DNA from: Syntrophaceae bacterium
GTDB lineage: Bacteria; Desulfobacterota; BSN033; UBA1163
Direction of reading: 5' to 3'
DNA length: 64,000 nucleotides
Assembly: GCA_013388635.1 (NCBI GenBank)
Contig: JACAEX010000043.1
Span: forward strand, 62,001-126,000
Part shown: positions 5,151 through 35,536 of the stretch, piece by piece
How the letters are laid out: each line of letters opens with the position of its first letter
Numbering within the stretch: the first letter of the stretch is position 1
Notes under the pieces: model-generated
The model's database searches: none
What the model was told of the DNA's origin: nothing
Seen by the model: the letters and a program-made list of their open reading frames with translations, nothing else
Position numbers and translations under genes: made by a program

Positions 5151-6161
5151 TTACCGGAGATGACAGGCGGCCCAATGGCCGTTGCCCAGATCCCGGAAGG
5201 CGGGCACCTCATTCGTACAGAGATCAATCCGTTCCGGACACCGCGTATGAAAACCGCAACCTGAAGGTGGGTTAAGAGGACTCGGTACGTCCCCCTGGAG
5301 AACGATCCTCCGTTGCTGAACTTCGGGATCTGGAACAGGGACCGCCGAGAGCAGCGCCTGCGTATAAGGATGTTGAGGGTTTCGGTAGAGTTCCTGATCG
5401 GTGGCCAGCTCCACGATCCGGCCTAAATACATGACGGCCACCCGGTTGCTGATGTGCTCCACCACGCTCAGGTCATGGGCGATAAAGAGATAGGAAAGTC
5501 CCATCTCCTCCTGGAGCTGGACCAGGAGGTTGATCACCTGGGCCTGAATGGAGACGTCGAGGGCAGAGACCGGCTCATCACATATGATCACCCTTGGGTT
5601 CAGAGCCAGGGCCCTTGCAATGCCGATTCGCTGCCTCTGTCCTCCGCTGAATTCATGCGGATACCTCCGGGCCTGCTCGGGATGAAGCCCGACCTTCTCC
5701 ATAAGAAAGCAGACCCGATCTCGGATCTCTCCCCGGGACGACCGGGTATGGTTCCTGAGAGGCTCGGCAATGATCTCGCCCACGTTCATCCTGGGATTTA
5801 GCGATGAGTAGGGATCCTGGAAGATGATCTGAAACCTGGCCCTAACCTTTCGCAGCGCCTCCCGATCCATCTTCAGAAGATCCTCTCCCTCGAATAGAAC
5901 CTCTCCTTCGGTAGGCTCGATCAATCGCAGAAGGCAGCGAGCCACCGTGGTCTTTCCGCATCCGCTCTCGCCCACCAGTCCAAGGGTCTCACCTTCTCGA
6001 AGCTCAAAGTCGACCCCATCCACTGCACGAATCGAACCCCGGGTTCCTGAAAACAGACCCTTTCGCACAGGAAAGTCCTTTCTCAGGTTGTGAACTTCTA
6101 ATAAAGCCAAACTATTCCCTCCATCAGTTCCATAACCAGCAGAGAACTTTCCGGCCACCAT
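5151..6161 (-). CDS. Dipeptide/oligopeptide ABC transporter ATP-binding protein (DppF/OppF)
   Basis: Walker [10 protein letters not shown], signature [15 protein letters not shown]-terminal oligopeptide extension with [14 protein letters not shown]. Confidence 0.95.
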
Positions 6162-26074: not shown

Positions 26075-27733
26075 GTGAAAATGAAAATCCTTCTGATTCA
26101 ACCGCCGGTTCGGGATTTTTATCAGACCACGATACGGACACAGCCGATCGGCCTGGCCTATCTTGCTGCCTCTCTTCAAAAACATGGCTACGAAGTCGAG
26201 ATTCTCGACTGCCAAAAAGGGACGAAGAAATCGGTCCCCATCCCTGCCGAGCTCTCCTATCTCAAGGCTCTCTACCCCTTTGATGACCGGAGTCCGTTCA
26301 AGCTCTATTCGGGCTATTACCATTTCGGAATGGGTTGGGAAGAGATCCGGCGAAAGATCGAGGGCTCGGAGGCCGATCTCTTTGGGATCTCCTCTAACTT
26401 CACGCCATATCATGGCGAGGCATTGGAGATCGCTCGAATTGTTAAGGAATCTGATAGAAGAAGAATCGTGGTCATGGGAGGGGCACATGTCAGCTGCGAT
26501 CCGGAAGGGGTTCTCCGCAACCCGTTCGTCGACTATGTCGTCTTGGGAGAAGGAGAGGTTCGCCTTCCCTCCCTTCTGAATCGCCTTCAAAAAGGAGGAG
26601 TCCCGCGCGATATCGAAGGCATCGGGTATCGGGTGAACGGAGAGATCCGGGTGAATCCGCTCCGGACTTTTATCCAGGATCTGGATTCTCTTCCACATCC
26701 TTCAAGGGAGAGGCTCGATCTGGATCGATATCGGATCGGAAGGAAACGATCCACCATGATCATCACCAGCAGGGGCTGCCCCCATGGATGCGCCTATTGT
26801 TCAACCCATCTCGTGATGGGCACCTCTTTTCGAACCCGGTCTCCAGATGCCATTATTCAGGAGATGATCGCATGCAGGAAGCAATACGACATCCGAGCCT
26901 TTGACATCGAAGATGACAATTTCACCTTTGATCAGGAACGGGCAAAGAGATTGATGAGATTGATCATTGAGACTTTTGGAGAGGAGAATATCGAACTGAC
27001 GGCCATGAACGGCATCTCCTTTGCCTCTCTCGATCAGGAGCTTCTGGAATTGATGAAGAGGGCAGGGTTTAGAACCATCAATCTCTCATTCGTCAGCACA
27101 GATCCGTCGGTCAAAATGATGATGCATCGGCCTGCCGCCCCACATGATTTTCATGAGGTCTTGGAGATGGCCAGAAAGATTGGGTTGAGCGTCATTGCTT
27201 ATGCCATTTTTGGAATGCCAGGTCAAACCATAGAAGAAATGGTGGACACGTTAATCTATCTAATGGAGAAAAGGGTTCTGATCGGGCCGAGCGTTTACTA
27301 TCCCACCCCCGGAACTCCTCTCTTTGAGAAGTGTAGAAAGGAACGGACCCTCCCATCGCATCCCTCCCAATGGCGGTCGAGCGCCCTGCCCATCGAAACG
27401 GATAAATTTAACCGCCTCGATTTATTAACCCTTCTCCGCCTGGTCAGGGTCATCAACTTTATAAAGGGAAAAATGGACCAGGAGGAATTGAGCGAAGGAA
27501 TGACGTGGAAAGCACTTGACCAACTGTTGAAGGCTGAGGCCGAGGCCAAGGATGAGTCAGTGACGTGGAAGGACCTTCTTTCATTGCTCTTGAGAGAAAA
27601 GACCTTTTTCAGTATGAAGACGGATTCTAAGCAAAAGACATCGATTTTGAAAGAGGCGAGTTCCGGAAGGGTCATGGATGCTTTCTTTGAGAGGGCCTGG
27701 GAAACTCCTGTCCTGAAGAGTAGAAATGCTTAA
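26075..27733 (+). CDS. B12-binding domain radical SAM protein
   Basis: ILLIQPPVRDFYQ...PIGLAYLAASLQKHGYEVEILDC N-domain; SRGCPHGCAYCSTHLVMG (CxxxCxxC). Confidence 0.93.
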   Translation: MKMKILLIQPPVRDFYQTTIRTQPIGLAYLAASLQKHGYEVEILDCQKGTKKSVPIPAELSYLKALYPFDDRSPFKLYSGYYHFGMGWEEIRRKIEGSEADLFGISSNFTPYHGEALEIARIVKESDRRRIVVMGGAHVSCDPEGVLRNPFVDYVVLGEGEVRLPSLLNRLQKGGVPRDIEGIGYRVNGEIRVNPLRTFIQDLDSLPHPSRERLDLDRYRIGRKRSTMIITSRGCPHGCAYCSTHLVMGTSFRTRSPDAIIQEMIACRKQYDIRAFDIEDDNFTFDQERAKRLMRLIIETFGEENIELTAMNGISFASLDQELLELMKRAGFRTINLSFVSTDPSVKMMMHRPAAPHDFHEVLEMARKIGLSVIAYAIFGMPGQTIEEMVDTLIYLMEKRVLIGPSVYYPTPGTPLFEKCRKERTLPSHPSQWRSSALPIETDKFNRLDLLTLLRLVRVINFIKGKMDQEELSEGMTWKALDQLLKAEAEAKDESVTWKDLLSLLLREKTFFSMKTDSKQKTSILKEASSGRVMDAFFERAWETPVLKSRNA

Positions 27734-28952: not shown

Positions 28953-29354
28953 TTATCTACCCTTGCTTGACCGCCTGGGAGGATAGGTGGCCTCGATCGT
29001 GCTCTTCATCCCTCCCCGGACATTGAACTCACCAATGACAATCGCCCGGATCGGCTTGGTAGCCTTTACGAAGTCTCTCAGGATTCGGTTGACCGCATTC
29101 TCGTAGAAGATCCCCAAATTCCGGTAACCGAGGATGTACATCTTTAAGGACTTCAATTCTGCACACCACCGATTGGGAACATACCGAATCGTAATGGTCC
29201 CGAAATCCGGCAATCCTGTTCGAGGACAGACGGAGGTAAACTCGGGGATCGAGATGGTGATCTCGTAATCCCTAAATTGATTTTCGAAACATTCGATCTT
29301 CGGAAGAGGGGTGCTGATCCCTGCCTTTGCATGGGCTTCCGTATACTCAGCCAT
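28953..29354 (-). CDS. queF: NADPH-dependent 7-cyano-7-deazaguanine reductase (preQ1 synthase)
   Basis: FTSVCPRTGLPDFGTITIRYVPNRWCAELKSLKMYILGYRN. Confidence 0.95.
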   Translation of the reverse strand: MAEYTEAHAKAGISTPLPKIECFENQFRDYEITISIPEFTSVCPRTGLPDFGTITIRYVPNRWCAELKSLKMYILGYRNLGIFYENAVNRILRDFVKATKPIRAIVIGEFNVRGGMKSTIEATYPPRRSSKGR

Positions 29355-29536
29355 GGTCTCACCTTTTTAGAGCCATCTTAATTCCAGGGCCTGGGCTCAG
29401 GCCGTGGAGAATTACATTATAATTGCACGCGGAATACAATGTCAAAAGGAAAGATATTGAATCTTTTTCTCACTATTGTTAAATATAGGTGGTATAATCT
29501 CGAGGGATTTAATAAGAATTTGGCTGAGGTGAAGAT

Positions 29537-30688
29537 TTGGATCTGACCCTTTCGATCCAGCAGAGACAGATAAGGAGAATGGCCCGTCAGTTTGCCAAGA
29601 CCGAGCTCGCGCCCATCGCCAAGGAGATCGACGAGGAAGGCCGCTTCCCCTGGGAAGCGGTGGAGAAGATGGGAGCCCTCAATTTTTTTGGGATGCAGGC
29701 TCCCAGACGGTATGGCGGTGCAGAACTGGACTCCATCTCGTATTGTCTGGTGATCGAGGAGATCTCGCGCCTCTGCGCATCGATGGGGCTGATGCTGGCC
29801 GTCCATAACAGCGTCGTCGTCTTTCCCCTAAACCAATTCGGAAGCGACGAGCAGAAGGCCAAGTTCCTTCCTCCCTTAGCCTCAGGCGAAAAGATCGGCG
29901 CCTTCTGTCTGACCGAACCAAATGCCGGCTCAGACGCCATGGCCATTGAATCGACCGCCATCAGAGACGGCGACTCTTATATCGTCAATGCCAATAAGAT
30001 ATTCGTGACCAATGGCGGGGTGGCCGACACCCTGATCGTCTTCGTCTCAGTGAATCCAGAGGATGTGAAGAAGGGATTCAGTGCGATCCTGGTTGAGCGC
30101 GGCACTCCAGGATTTGAGGTAGGGCTCCTTGAGAACAATTGCGGCATGCGCGCCAATCCGGTCACCTCGATCGTCCTCACCGACTGCCGGGTGCCCAGGA
30201 CCAACCTCCTCGGCCGGGAGGGCGACGGATTTAAGGTTGCCATGGCTGCCTTAGATACCGGCCGGATCGGTATTGCGGCACAGGCGGTGGGGATCGCTCA
30301 GGGTGCCCTGGACGTCTCCTTGAAATATGCGAAGGAGCGGATTCAATTCCGCGTCCCTCTGGCGAGGCATCAGGCCATTCAGATGATGCTCGCTGACATG
30401 GGGACCATGGTCGAAGCAGCGCGGCTTCTCACCTTAAAGGCAGCCCATGTGAGAGACCAAGGAGGTGATCTCTCCGGGCCCTCAGCCATGGCCAAGCTCT
30501 TTGCCGGCCGCACCGCTTCAAAGGTTGCCTCCATGGGTGTCCAGATTCACGGAGGTTATGGATACAGCAAGGACTACCCCATTGAACGATATTTCCGCGA
30601 TGCCCGGGTCACAGAGATTTATGAGGGCACGAATGAGATCCAGCAGATCGTCATCGCCCGTGAGCTTCTAAAAGGGGGCGAAGACTGA
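29537..30688 (+). CDS. Acyl-CoA dehydrogenase (TTG start)
   Basis: [62 protein letters not shown]. Confidence 0.95.
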
Positions 30689-31473
30689 TGGAGATCATCG
30701 TCTGTATCAAACAGGTGGTAGCTGGAGATCGGGTGAAGATCGATCCGCGCACTTACAGCCTCGTGCGGTCCGCAGAATCCTCCCATATCAACCCCTTCGA
30801 TCTATTCGCTCTGGATATGGCGGTTCAACTGAGGAAAAAGTATGCCGGGTCGATCACCGCTCTCACCATGGGGCCAAAGATCAGTGAGGAGGTCCTCTGG
30901 GAGGCCCTATCCCTTGGAGCTGACAGGGCCATACTCCTCTCGGATCCGCGATGCGCTGCAAGCGATACCCTGGCCACCTCCTACGTGCTGGGCATGGGCA
31001 TTCGGAAGATCGGCAGGTTCGATCTGATCCTCTGCGGGATGCGGACCACTGATGGTGATACCGGTCAGGTCGGTCCCCAACTGGCAGAGGAGCTGAATCT
31101 TCCCCATATCGGCAACGTGGAAAAGGTGGAGGGGGAGAGGGGACTTCTTCGCATCGAAAGGCTGACGGACGGATTCAGAGAGATCCTGGAGGTCTCTCTG
31201 CCAGCTCTGCTCACCGTCTCTCCGAGAAGAACGGTACGCCTTGCGAGCCTGATAGAGATTCAGGATGCCTTTACCCGATGCTCCATCGAGTCCTGGAATT
31301 TAGAGGATCTGAAGGCCGATCCAGCGAAGGCGGGCATTTCCGGTTCTGGGACATGGGTGGAGGGACTGACTCCTCTCACACAGGAGAAGTCCTGTGTCTT
31401 GATTGAAGGAGATCCCCGGCAGCAGGCTAAGTCACTCTTGAAAAAACTGATCGAAAGGAATCTGCTTTCATAG
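30688..31473 (+). CDS. etfB: Electron transfer flavoprotein beta subunit
   Basis: [46 protein letters not shown]. Confidence 0.93.
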   Translation: MEIIVCIKQVVAGDRVKIDPRTYSLVRSAESSHINPFDLFALDMAVQLRKKYAGSITALTMGPKISEEVLWEALSLGADRAILLSDPRCAASDTLATSYVLGMGIRKIGRFDLILCGMRTTDGDTGQVGPQLAEELNLPHIGNVEKVEGERGLLRIERLTDGFREILEVSLPALLTVSPRRTVRLASLIEIQDAFTRCSIESWNLEDLKADPAKAGISGSGTWVEGLTPLTQEKSCVLIEGDPRQQAKSLLKKLIERNLLS

Positions 31474-31477
31474 AGCG

Positions 31478-33058
31478 ATGAAGAGAGATTTGGAGATCTG
31501 GGTCTTCGGAGATCATCGCAATCATCCCAGGGATCGTCTGACCCTGCAGGTCCTGGCAAAGGCGAGGACCCTTTCCGAAAATACGGGAAGGGTGACGGTG
31601 GTCCTCTTGGGACATCAGATGGAGGATATCGCAAGGGAGTATATCGCCTACGGTGCCCAGCGTATCCTCATGGTCGATCATCCAGAGCTTGCCGTCTATC
31701 GGGCAGATCTATTCACAGGTATGATCAGCGATCTGATTCAGGAAGAAAGACCGGATATCTTTCTCTTGGGAGCGTCAGGGTTTGGAAGAGAGCTGGCTGC
31801 CAGAATCGCTAAACGGATCGGAGCAGGCCTCGGCGCAGATTGCGTCTCCCTGGATTGGGATGAGCAGAAGCAGATGCTGATCGCCTCCAGTCCAGCGTTT
31901 GGTGGAAACTTCCTGGCACAGATCTGCTGGAGTTCTGTTAGACCTTCCATGGCCACGGTCAGCCCTGGAAGCTTTCCCGAACGGCCTTATGATAAGGCTG
32001 CTCATGGGGAGATTGTGAAGGTGAGAAGAGATCTGAATCAGGCCTTCTCAAGAATCAGAGTGATCTCCTCTGTTCGAGAGCCAACCCGATCTGCCAGACT
32101 GGAAGAGGCTAAGATCGTGGTCGCCGGTGGCCGGGGAATGAAAGATCTCCAGGGATTCGACCATATCCGAGAACTCTCCCTGCTCCTGGGAGGCGAGGTG
32201 GGTGCAACCCGGCCGGCTGTCGATGCCCACTGGACATCGGATGAGCAATTGATCGGCCAGACCGGGAAGTCGATCAGACCACAGCTTCTGATCACCTGCG
32301 GCACCTCTGGTGCAATCCAGTACACTGCTGCCATTCGAGGCTCAGGGACGATTGTGGCTGTCAATCGTGATCCCCATGCCCCAATATTCAAGATGGCCGA
32401 TTTCGGAGTGGTGACCGACGCCCTATCCTTCCTGCCCGCCTTCATTGCCGAGGTAAAAGGCCATCTCTTCAGGGAGATTGCAGATCTCTATCGCCATCAG
32501 GTCCGAATCGGAAGGGATCAGATGCCGGTCTCTTTCGGCCAGCGGATAAAGAAGTTGAGGGAAGACCGGAGGATGAGCGTCGCAGAGATGGCAGAAAAGA
32601 CAGGCCAGCCACCGGAGTTCATCAAGGAGGTGGAGTCGGACAGTCTGACGCCTCCGGTTTCGTTCTTATTACAACTCTCCCATGCCCTTCAGATCGACCC
32701 GAGCAACTTTCTAACAGAGCAGGAGAAGGTCCAGATCGGCGGAAAGAGGCAGGAGGCATTTGTAAAGCGCACCCAGAACTACTCCTACCGGACCCTCACC
32801 CCAGGGGCTGCGGACAAACACCTCCGCTCCTTCATGGTCACGATTGAGCCCAGAGAGAAGCATAAGATGGTGGAGTATAAACACCCGGGAGAGGAGTTCA
32901 TCTTTGTCTATAAGGGAGAGCTGGAACTGACGCTGGGGACCAAGGTGATCCATTTGAAGCAGGGAGAGACCATCCACTTTGACTCCGAAACGAAACACAA
33001 ACTCCGAAACCTCTCCGATGAGAAATGCGAACTGATCGTCACCCTCTACACCCCGTAA
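31478..33058 (+). CDS. Electron transfer flavoprotein alpha subunit fused to XRE-type HTH and cupin domains
   Basis: ETF-alpha part (to about 32470) with FAD-site motifs GVGATRPAVDAHWTSDEQLIGQTGKSIRPQLLITCGTSGAIQYTAAIRGSGTIVAVNRDPHAPIFKMADFGVVTD. HTH from about 32534 (FGQRIKKLREDRRMSVAEMAEKTGQPPEFIKEVESD). Cupin to the stop (HPGEEFIFVYKGELELTLGTKVIHLKQGETIHFDSETKHKLRN). Confidence 0.92.
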   Translation: MKRDLEIWVFGDHRNHPRDRLTLQVLAKARTLSENTGRVTVVLLGHQMEDIAREYIAYGAQRILMVDHPELAVYRADLFTGMISDLIQEERPDIFLLGASGFGRELAARIAKRIGAGLGADCVSLDWDEQKQMLIASSPAFGGNFLAQICWSSVRPSMATVSPGSFPERPYDKAAHGEIVKVRRDLNQAFSRIRVISSVREPTRSARLEEAKIVVAGGRGMKDLQGFDHIRELSLLLGGEVGATRPAVDAHWTSDEQLIGQTGKSIRPQLLITCGTSGAIQYTAAIRGSGTIVAVNRDPHAPIFKMADFGVVTDALSFLPAFIAEVKGHLFREIADLYRHQVRIGRDQMPVSFGQRIKKLREDRRMSVAEMAEKTGQPPEFIKEVESDSLTPPVSFLLQLSHALQIDPSNFLTEQEKVQIGGKRQEAFVKRTQNYSYRTLTPGAADKHLRSFMVTIEPREKHKMVEYKHPGEEFIFVYKGELELTLGTKVIHLKQGETIHFDSETKHKLRNLSDEKCELIVTLYTP

Positions 33059-33946: not shown

Positions 33947-35536
33947 ATGGCAAAAGTGGACTGCCTCTTCATCCATGTCCCCAAGCTGAAAAATCACTAC
34001 CGCCCCATTGATCAGTTTATCTGGATCAACTTCCTTCCGATGGGCCTCCTCGGATTGGCAGACCTCCTTCAACGCCATGGCATCTCAACCGAGATCGTCC
34101 ACATGGGAGTGGAGTGGATCGAAGATCATCATTTCTCCATTGTCAATTATGTCCGAGAGAAGAATCCACGGATGATTGCGATGGACCTCCACTGGCACCA
34201 TCAGAGTTTCGATGTGATTGAGATGGCCAAGAGGTTGAAGGCTGCCTTCTCCGACCTCTATCTTTTACTCGGAGGGTTCACCGCCAGTTTTTTTCATGAA
34301 GAGATCCTGAGGAACTTTGATGCGATCGATGGGATCATCCGGGGTGAAGCAGAAGAGCCGATTTTACAGCTGGCCCGGGCGCTTCTCCAGGGAAAAGAGG
34401 ACCTCTTCTCCGTGCCCAACCTCACCTGGAGGAGGGGAAAAAGAGTCCTGGTCAACCCCCTTTCCTATGTGGCCTCGGAGGAGGATCTCAACGCTCTTTC
34501 CTTCACAGACTTTCAGTTGTTAAAGAATTATCCGACCTACATCCGCTACATCGGCCAACCCTTTTATGTGAAGGGTCTCTCCAAGGAGAAAAATTTCAAG
34601 TTCTATTCCTTAAAATCGCCGACCTATCATCTTACGGTTGGAAGAGGCTGTCCTGTCCAATGCACCTGGTGCAGCGGCAATATCCCTTCTCAGGAGACGG
34701 TGACAGGTCGAAAGGAGGTGGTCTTCAGAGGGGTGGAGGAGGTCCTCCAATCGATCAGAGAAGCCTTCTCCTATGGGTATGAGAGTTTCCACATCTGTTT
34801 CGATCCCTATCCCCAAAGACCTGAATACTTTCTCGACCTCTTCTCTCATATCCGGAAAGAGAGGATCCAGATGGAATGTGTCTTTGAATCCTTCGGGCTA
34901 CCAGCAGTCGATTTTATTAAATCCTTTAAGGAGACCTTCCCCGGAGAAAAATCCCGGATCGCCCTCTCACCCGATGCCGGATCGGATCGGCTGAGGAGGA
35001 TGCACAAAGGTTATGCCTACACCAATCGGGAATTGATGGAGTGCCTTGAGCGATCGAAAGAGCACGGAGTCCTCTGCGACCTTTTCTTTATCCTGGGCCT
35101 CCCGTTTGAGAAGGAAGGAGATCTTCACGAAATGGTTCGACTCCAAAGAGAGGTCCGCCACCGATACCCCAATGTGAGAGGAATCCGCACCTTCACGGTC
35201 CAGATGGAGCCAGGCTCTCCCTGGCACCTCGATCCCGAAGCGTTCGGGGTGAAGACCTCTCTTCGGAATTTTATGGATTTTTACCATTATCATTCTGAGG
35301 AGGGTAGCCCATTTTCCTCTCCGGGATACTGGATCCCGGACTACTTCCAGGGGGTGGAGGATGAGAGCAATTTCGAAAAGAGATTGAAGAAGATCCAATG
35401 TCGCCACTTCTGCTTCATCCATCCCGACGTCAGGAAGTCATCAAGCCCATTCTGGGGAAGAAGGTTCTGCGACCTGTCGAATCTTTTATGGAAAATAAAG
35501 GCGTTGTCAGGGAGGAAAGAAATTGATATATTTTAA
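33947..35536 (+). CDS. B12-binding domain radical SAM protein
   Basis: LTVGRGCPVQCTWCSGNIP (CxxxCxxC) after a cobalamin-binding-like N-domain. Confidence 0.88.
   Translation: MAKVDCLFIHVPKLKNHYRPIDQFIWINFLPMGLLGLADLLQRHGISTEIVHMGVEWIEDHHFSIVNYVREKNPRMIAMDLHWHHQSFDVIEMAKRLKAAFSDLYLLLGGFTASFFHEEILRNFDAIDGIIRGEAEEPILQLARALLQGKEDLFSVPNLTWRRGKRVLVNPLSYVASEEDLNALSFTDFQLLKNYPTYIRYIGQPFYVKGLSKEKNFKFYSLKSPTYHLTVGRGCPVQCTWCSGNIPSQETVTGRKEVVFRGVEEVLQSIREAFSYGYESFHICFDPYPQRPEYFLDLFSHIRKERIQMECVFESFGLPAVDFIKSFKETFPGEKSRIALSPDAGSDRLRRMHKGYAYTNRELMECLERSKEHGVLCDLFFILGLPFEKEGDLHEMVRLQREVRHRYPNVRGIRTFTVQMEPGSPWHLDPEAFGVKTSLRNFMDFYHYHSEEGSPFSSPGYWIPDYFQGVEDESNFEKRLKKIQCRHFCFIHPDVRKSSSPFWGRRFCDLSNLLWKIKALSGRKEIDIF

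Follow-up and report, generated by a model that had tools for sequence, protein, structure and literature searches.

An electron-transfer flavoprotein alpha subunit (ETF-alpha) of a Syntrophaceae bacterium, part of a flavin electron carrier that serves acyl-CoA (fatty-acid) degradation, is joined, within one polypeptide, to an XRE-type helix-turn-helix (HTH) and a C-terminal cupin, and this fusion is an old and conserved family, present in many sulfate reducers and syntrophs, rather than a one-off. We propose that the protein is a bifunctional, PutA-like “trigger” ETF-alpha, most likely an autogenous repressor of its own acd-etfB-etfA operon, a reading to which we give about even credence.

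Results

The fusion gene is a single open frame of 526 amino acids that begins with ATG and has no internal stop (Table 1). Its N-terminal part belongs to the ETF-alpha family: PF01012 and PF00766 both score over their cut-offs, GQTGK, SGAxQ, and R245 are conserved, and fold matches agree. The remainder has the architecture of an XRE-cupin, with HTH_3 (aa 357–409, E=6e-06, exceeding the Pfam gathering score) followed by Cupin_2 (aa 453–521, E=6e-17); the NCBIfam model for PuuR covers aa 350–521, with a score far under its cut-off. An uninterrupted ETF-alpha/XRE HTH/cupin frame of this length, with a junction near 32470–32540, had been described in a first-pass annotation of the window (the whole stretch of 64,000 nucleotides analyzed here). 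Exact coordinates and Pfam domains agree with that description, and the linker maps to about 32468–32530 (aa 331–351). The annotation had named a stop or frameshift between the domains as grounds for abandoning the idea; there is none, and because many independent assemblies contain full-length fused homologues free of stops, the domain junction is biological.

Table 1. Coordinates of the operon, its candidate promoter, and the domains of the fusion protein in the window
Feature	Position	Strand	Basis
Candidate acd promoter and leader; candidate autoregulation site	29459..29532	+	TTGAAT ... TGGTATAAT (extended -10 like) and ribosome-binding site
acd, acyl-CoA dehydrogenase, first operon gene, TTG start	29537..30688	+	Pfam Acyl-CoA_dh_N/M/1
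etfB, ETF beta subunit	30688..31473	+	Pfam ETF E=7e-36; DGDT(G)QVGP motif
etfA~HTH-cupin fusion	31478..33058	+	ORF, Pfam, and fused homologues
ETF-alpha N-terminal (core) domain, aa 7-184	31496..32029	+	PF01012, E=2e-37
ETF-alpha FAD (shuttle) domain, aa 208-330	32099..32467	+	PF00766 at 208-286, E=2e-28; motifs; fold match to 7koe/4kpu/5ol2
Variable linker, aa 331-351	32468..32530	+	Identity averages 21% over 35 fused proteins; pLDDT <50 at 341-349
XRE-type helix-turn-helix, aa 352-413	32531..32716	+	HTH_3/HTH_19; modeled helices at expected places
Recognition helix region, aa 377-388, QPPEFIKEVESD	32606..32641	+	Fused-clade consensus Q[TSP]PEFIxQVExD
Cupin barrel, aa 428-526	32759..33055	+	Cupin_2; invariant H462, Y467, H469, E472, E473, H507

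As the same annotation had noted, etfB and an acyl-CoA dehydrogenase gene adjoin the fusion, and the three form a tight operon, acd-etfB-etfA~HTH-cupin, in the window: the start of etfB overlaps the end of acd by one base, and the fusion starts 4 bases after etfB. The TTG start of acd and the N terminus that follows it are kept in relatives, and GAGGTGA, which resembles a ribosome-binding site, stands 5' of acd at 29526–29532. A sigma-70-like promoter of the TTGAAA-N17-TATGAT type is common to close relatives at this place; the match in the window is weak and below the scan threshold, with TTGAAT at about 29458 and TGGTATAAT ending at about 29498. A simple scan, of a kind that could miss one, found no inverted repeat common to the promoters of the fused operons. 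The sole strong palindrome 5' of the window acd, from about 29383, is absent in relatives and was rejected as a shared operator. A perfect sigma-70 consensus promoter (TTGACA, 18 nt, TATAAT) at 29416–29445 on the minus strand faces a divergent QueF-like gene (28953–29354, minus strand). Outside the operon the genes are unrelated to it and include, besides the QueF-like gene, those for B12/radical-SAM proteins, a histidine phosphatase, an LMW phosphatase, a metallo-hydrolase, an HD-domain protein, a cyclase, and an inositol-phosphate synthase. Two of them, for B12-binding radical SAM proteins (26075–27733 and 33947–35536), lie on either side of the operon region and are not conserved neighbors of the fusion.

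The FAD domain of the ETF-alpha portion carries the motifs GATRPAVDAHW, GQTGK, and SGAIQYTA, the last replacing the usual SGAIQH. The Tyr for His in this motif is not a specific mark of the fusion, being found also in some unfused relatives. By sequence and by fold, the nearest ETF-alphas are those of bifurcating complexes (7koe, 6fah, 5ol2, and 4kpu). Bifurcating ETFs have a small residue, Gly (Gly123), in EtfB where beta-FAD binds (PMC12630350). By our own mapping of that residue onto DxDTxQVGP, the window copy of EtfB has Gly at the beta-FAD position, and Ser stands at the mapped position in 31 of the 33 EtfBs from fused operons with an identified DxD motif. The NCBIfam equivalog cut-offs for acryloyl-CoA reductase are not reached (AcrA, 244 of 600 bits; AcrB, 142 of 475; AcrC, 475 of 640), AcrC being the best NCBIfam model for acd. 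To judge from these motifs, bifurcation by the fused ETF is possible.

In all, 40 distinct full-length fused proteins were found, mostly in Desulfobacterota. The fusion is rare, as the first-pass annotation had supposed. Of 396 sampled Desulfobacterota genomes, 21 carry it at full length, most often as the last gene of acd-etfB-etfA~HTH-cupin. Five genomes of the same family have full-length fused homologues at 66–75% identity, and more distant homologues are 41–47% identical. Scanning of GTDB genomes turned up 32 fused loci, of which one is truncated by a contig end. The carriers belong to Syntrophales, Desulfobacterales, Desulfatiglandales, and Syntrophobacteria, some are metagenome-assembled genomes (MAGs) labeled otherwise, and one is an isolate, Desulfatibacillum alkenivorans DSM 16219. 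A fused protein close to a Desulfatiglandales one is found in a MAG named Nitrospirota (L049, CP070743.1), which reflects either transfer or a misnamed MAG. The genome of the window has a single fusion; five further ETF-alpha paralogues in it are unfused, and several HTH-cupins stand alone.

A mechanical ORF map shows the gene order acd-etfB-etfA~HTH-cupin at 22 of the 32 GTDB loci, and further genomes have it as well. The flanking genes differ each time, and therefore the unit itself is under selection. On one Smithellaceae contig (L054), the fusion (1260–2846) has no adjacent acd or etfB, and a stand-alone HTH-cupin of the sister family described below lies 2.5 kb away (5352–5897). Across seven close relatives, identity averages 64% in the ETF N-domain, 79% in the FAD domain, 82% in the HTH, and 90% in the cupin; the corresponding values for EtfB and the acyl-CoA dehydrogenase are 69% and 84%. 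Because it is more conserved than the ETF N-domain, the HTH-cupin half is not vestigial but under purifying constraint, and conservation of residues and of identity likewise rules out a decayed HTH or a lost cupin metal site. An accidental fusion or assembly artefact with a functionless C-terminal half has a negligible chance of being correct, given the 40 distinct sequences, the independent assemblies, the conserved operon, the purifying constraint, and the isolate genome.

The closest unfused relatives of the C-terminal half are a sister family of stand-alone HTH-cupins, 38–53% identical to it, the next relatives reaching about 35% or less. Of 20 genomes, 15 have the stand-alone sister gene directly next to an acyl-CoA dehydrogenase gene, and in some a thiolase gene adjoins it as well. 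This strengthens the link to acyl-CoA metabolism that the first-pass annotation had drawn and, since the sisters so often adjoin acd, means that the fusion joined an acyl-CoA-dehydrogenase-linked XRE-cupin to an ETF serving such a dehydrogenase. In the window genome a member of this family (G000:C49:13956–14483; L006, L128), 49% identical to the fused half, stands by itself and does not adjoin acd as it does in many relatives.

In the HTH-cupin tree the fused proteins form one clade, with support of 97/94 for 37 of the 40 and 82/14 once three long-branched rows are included. In the ETF-alpha tree, 37 of the 40 form a clade (99/94) that includes one loss of the HTH-cupin, and the other three stand apart on a long branch; a tree that unites all 40 is not rejected (p-AU 0.38). 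We considered separate origins of the fusion and set them aside, given this result and the one fused HTH-cupin clade, whose deepest fork has weak support. Most simply, an acd-linked XRE-cupin was fused once to the ETF-alpha encoded in an acd-etfBA operon, and the fusion then spread within the phylum and was lost at least once. The locus of the loss (L173, G323:C70, 7047–8105) has acd-etfB-etfA inside the fused clade with the HTH-cupin cleanly gone and no remnant downstream, and is a natural control for the role of the added half.

Six cupin residues (H462, Y467, H469, E472, E473, and H507) are invariant in 40/40 fused proteins, and four of them (H469, E472, E473, and H507) also in 24/24 stand-alone sisters. 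H469-x3-E473...H507 has the form of a 2-His/1-carboxylate (2-His/1-Glu type) metal site, and this complete triad points to a ligand that is metal-dependent or a small acid, and not to acyl-CoA directly. In the HTH, G354, R361, A372, and E386 are invariant in the fused proteins, and G354, R361, and E386 in all stand-alone sisters too. The recognition helix of the fused clade is strongly conserved, clade-specific, and acidic, with a mean net charge of -3.2 versus -1.25 in the unfused sisters, whose helix is more variable. The 434 repressor contacts bases through Gln residues of its recognition helix; at those positions, as commonly given, the fused helix has Pro and Glu. Such an acidic helix neither proves nor excludes DNA binding.

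An AlphaFold2 model of the fusion, built with 35 fused sequences, has good domains (mean pLDDT 79.6), a poor linker, and an uncertain domain arrangement (pTM 0.41). A separate model of the HTH-cupin (mean pLDDT 82.9) shows XRE helices of the normal kind and, after them, a beta barrel. The first-pass annotation had named structural models in which the HTH lacks DNA-contact residues as counting against its reading; in the model the HTH has a normal XRE fold, but its recognition helix is acidic. A fold search returned ETF-alphas first, bifurcating and other, and then, for the C-terminal half, the HTH_3 regulator 1y9q, the best solved full-length relative, and the epoxidase HppE. Overall TM-scores in this search are only about 0.4 because the relative placement of the domains is uncertain.

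Discussion

In an autoregulatory fusion, EtfB and the fused ETF-alpha would make up an ETF that accepts electrons from the co-encoded acyl-CoA dehydrogenase or donates electrons to it, and the C-terminal XRE-cupin half would serve as a local transcriptional regulator, most likely repressing acd-etfB-etfA. The comparisons above establish the fusion, its conservation, the operon, the constraint on the HTH-cupin half, and the origin of that half. Beyond this, we infer that the fusion would bind at the acd promoter in dimeric or higher oligomeric form and come off the DNA when the cupin binds a metal-dependent ligand; alternatively, release could follow engagement of the ETF moiety by EtfB or the partner dehydrogenase, or a redox change. 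With one regulator for each ETF, the outcome would be homeostatic feedback as in PutA, a flavoenzyme that carries its own DNA-binding domain and switch (PMC5293562). Characterized XRE-cupins of Pseudomonas repress neighboring genes, in one case an FAD oxidoreductase gene of the predicted operon to which the regulator itself belongs (PMC7901475).

The retained helix pattern of the HTH, with G354, R361, and E386 invariant, favors autoregulation, as do the 40 distinct fused proteins, the kept operon order, the sisters that adjoin acd, and the conservation of HTH (82%) and cupin (90%) versus the ETF N-domain (64%). Against it count the acidic recognition helix, the want of a shared inverted repeat, the uncertain domain orientation (pTM 0.41), and the stand-alone paralogue present in 8/9 sampled fusion genomes, which might do the regulation itself. 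A redox- or acyl-CoA-sensing regulator, as the first-pass annotation had it, would be plausible. The shuttle (FAD) domain of ETFs is mobile and rotates in the ETF cycle (PMC10765413), and coupling of the state of the electron carrier to DNA binding would be physically plausible because the HTH-cupin hangs on this rotating domain through a flexible linker. That the redox or docking state of the FAD shuttle, alone or with a metal-dependent cupin ligand, switches the XRE domain at its own acd/ETF promoter seems to us unlikely. If true, electron-carrier load would be read directly at the DNA in strict anaerobes, and the ETF itself would be a transcription factor.

The HTH-cupin could also be a structural or docking module that does not bind DNA, its oligomers gathering ETF around the tetrameric acyl-CoA dehydrogenase or docking another partner, with an effect on the efficiency of electron transfer and not on transcription. 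The recognition helix, acidic and strongly conserved where that of the sisters is more variable, would fit such a role, as would the lack of an operator common to the promoters and the high constraint on HTH and cupin although the promoters are unalike. HppE, whose HTH domain serves assembly and the binding of substrate rather than of DNA, is the next-best full-length fold match after the HTH_3 regulator. Yet the XRE helix pattern is canonical and its core residues are conserved, the sister family and the Pseudomonas XRE-cupins adjoin or regulate metabolic genes, and the L173 lineage retains acd-etfB-etfA after loss of the HTH-cupin, which is therefore not needed for assembly there. We consider this a serious alternative, though less likely than autoregulation. 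The likeness to HppE would bear as well on a cupin that is a catalytic metal center, making the fusion a two-activity enzyme fed by ETF electrons. The invariant H469, E473, and H507, the H-x3-E spacing, and the fold match point that way, but the regulator-like sisters, which are unfused, have these residues invariant too, sensor cupins also commonly have metal sites, the HppE reaction is oxidative and unlikely in strict anaerobes, and the overall TM-scores are only about 0.4; we regard catalysis as very improbable.

The stand-alone paralogues raise a further possibility, namely that the fusion acts in trans, forming mixed oligomers with or competing against a stand-alone XRE-cupin that governs another acd, so that the level or state of the ETF would tune the paralogue. 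A stand-alone sister is present in 8/9 sampled fusion genomes versus 25/109 without a fusion (Fisher p 1e-4, confounded by phylogeny), and the two HTH-cupin halves in the window genome are 49% identical. However, the stand-alone gene there does not adjoin an acyl-CoA dehydrogenase gene, and the co-occurrence may be plain ancestry, and we judge action in trans to be improbable.

Sulfate reducers and syntrophs operate close to the thermodynamic limit, at which the dehydrogenation of acyl-CoA and the carriage of electrons need close matching, and the fusion may let an ETF switch its own genes on or off. A conserved polypeptide that is both carrier and regulator is a direct, testable handle on such regulation, and one of its carriers is the isolate D. 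alkenivorans DSM 16219. If the protein is PutA-like, it would be an ETF acting as its own regulator, for which the literature searched gave no precedent; in the same literature, mostly outside subscription journals, we found no published combination of ETF, HTH, and cupin.

Several known systems resemble the fusion in part. Trifunctional PutA likewise unites a flavin redox protein and a DNA-binding-type domain in one polypeptide, and autogenous control is the logic expected of such a protein. The two are not homologous, however: PutA has a ribbon-helix-helix (RHH), whereas here an electron carrier subunit has a C-terminal XRE-cupin with putative DNA binding, and by Pfam the PRODH/P5CDH and RHH domains of PutA are absent from the fusion; the comparison concerns the way of working only. 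The Pseudomonas transcription inhibitors ErfA, PsdR, PauR, and PA0535 share the order of XRE HTH then cupin and have metabolic neighbors, in one case FAD-dependent, but they stand alone rather than fused to ETF-alpha, and no palindromic operator was found at the fused operons. In Bcd-EtfAB and the acryloyl-CoA and caffeyl-CoA reductases, an acyl-CoA dehydrogenase is encoded with etfB and etfA, as here, and EtfB has a motif of the DxDTxQVGP type. The fused operons differ from these bifurcating complexes in scoring under all NCBIfam equivalog cut-offs, in having mostly Ser and not Gly at the beta-FAD position, in the change of the SGAIQH His to Tyr/Phe, and in the extra HTH-cupin. HppE (hydroxypropylphosphonate epoxidase) combines an HTH with a 2-His/1-Glu metal cupin; the fusion matches its fold and has a conserved H-x3-E...H. 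HppE is an oxidative enzyme with no ETF link, about 20% identical in the fold alignment. The stand-alone HTH-cupins beside acd in Desulfobacterota form the sister clade and have the same metal-type residues, but they are separate proteins with a less acidic and more variable recognition helix. The component families are all known, and their combination is a further form of a known kind of protein, the enzyme-regulator fusion.
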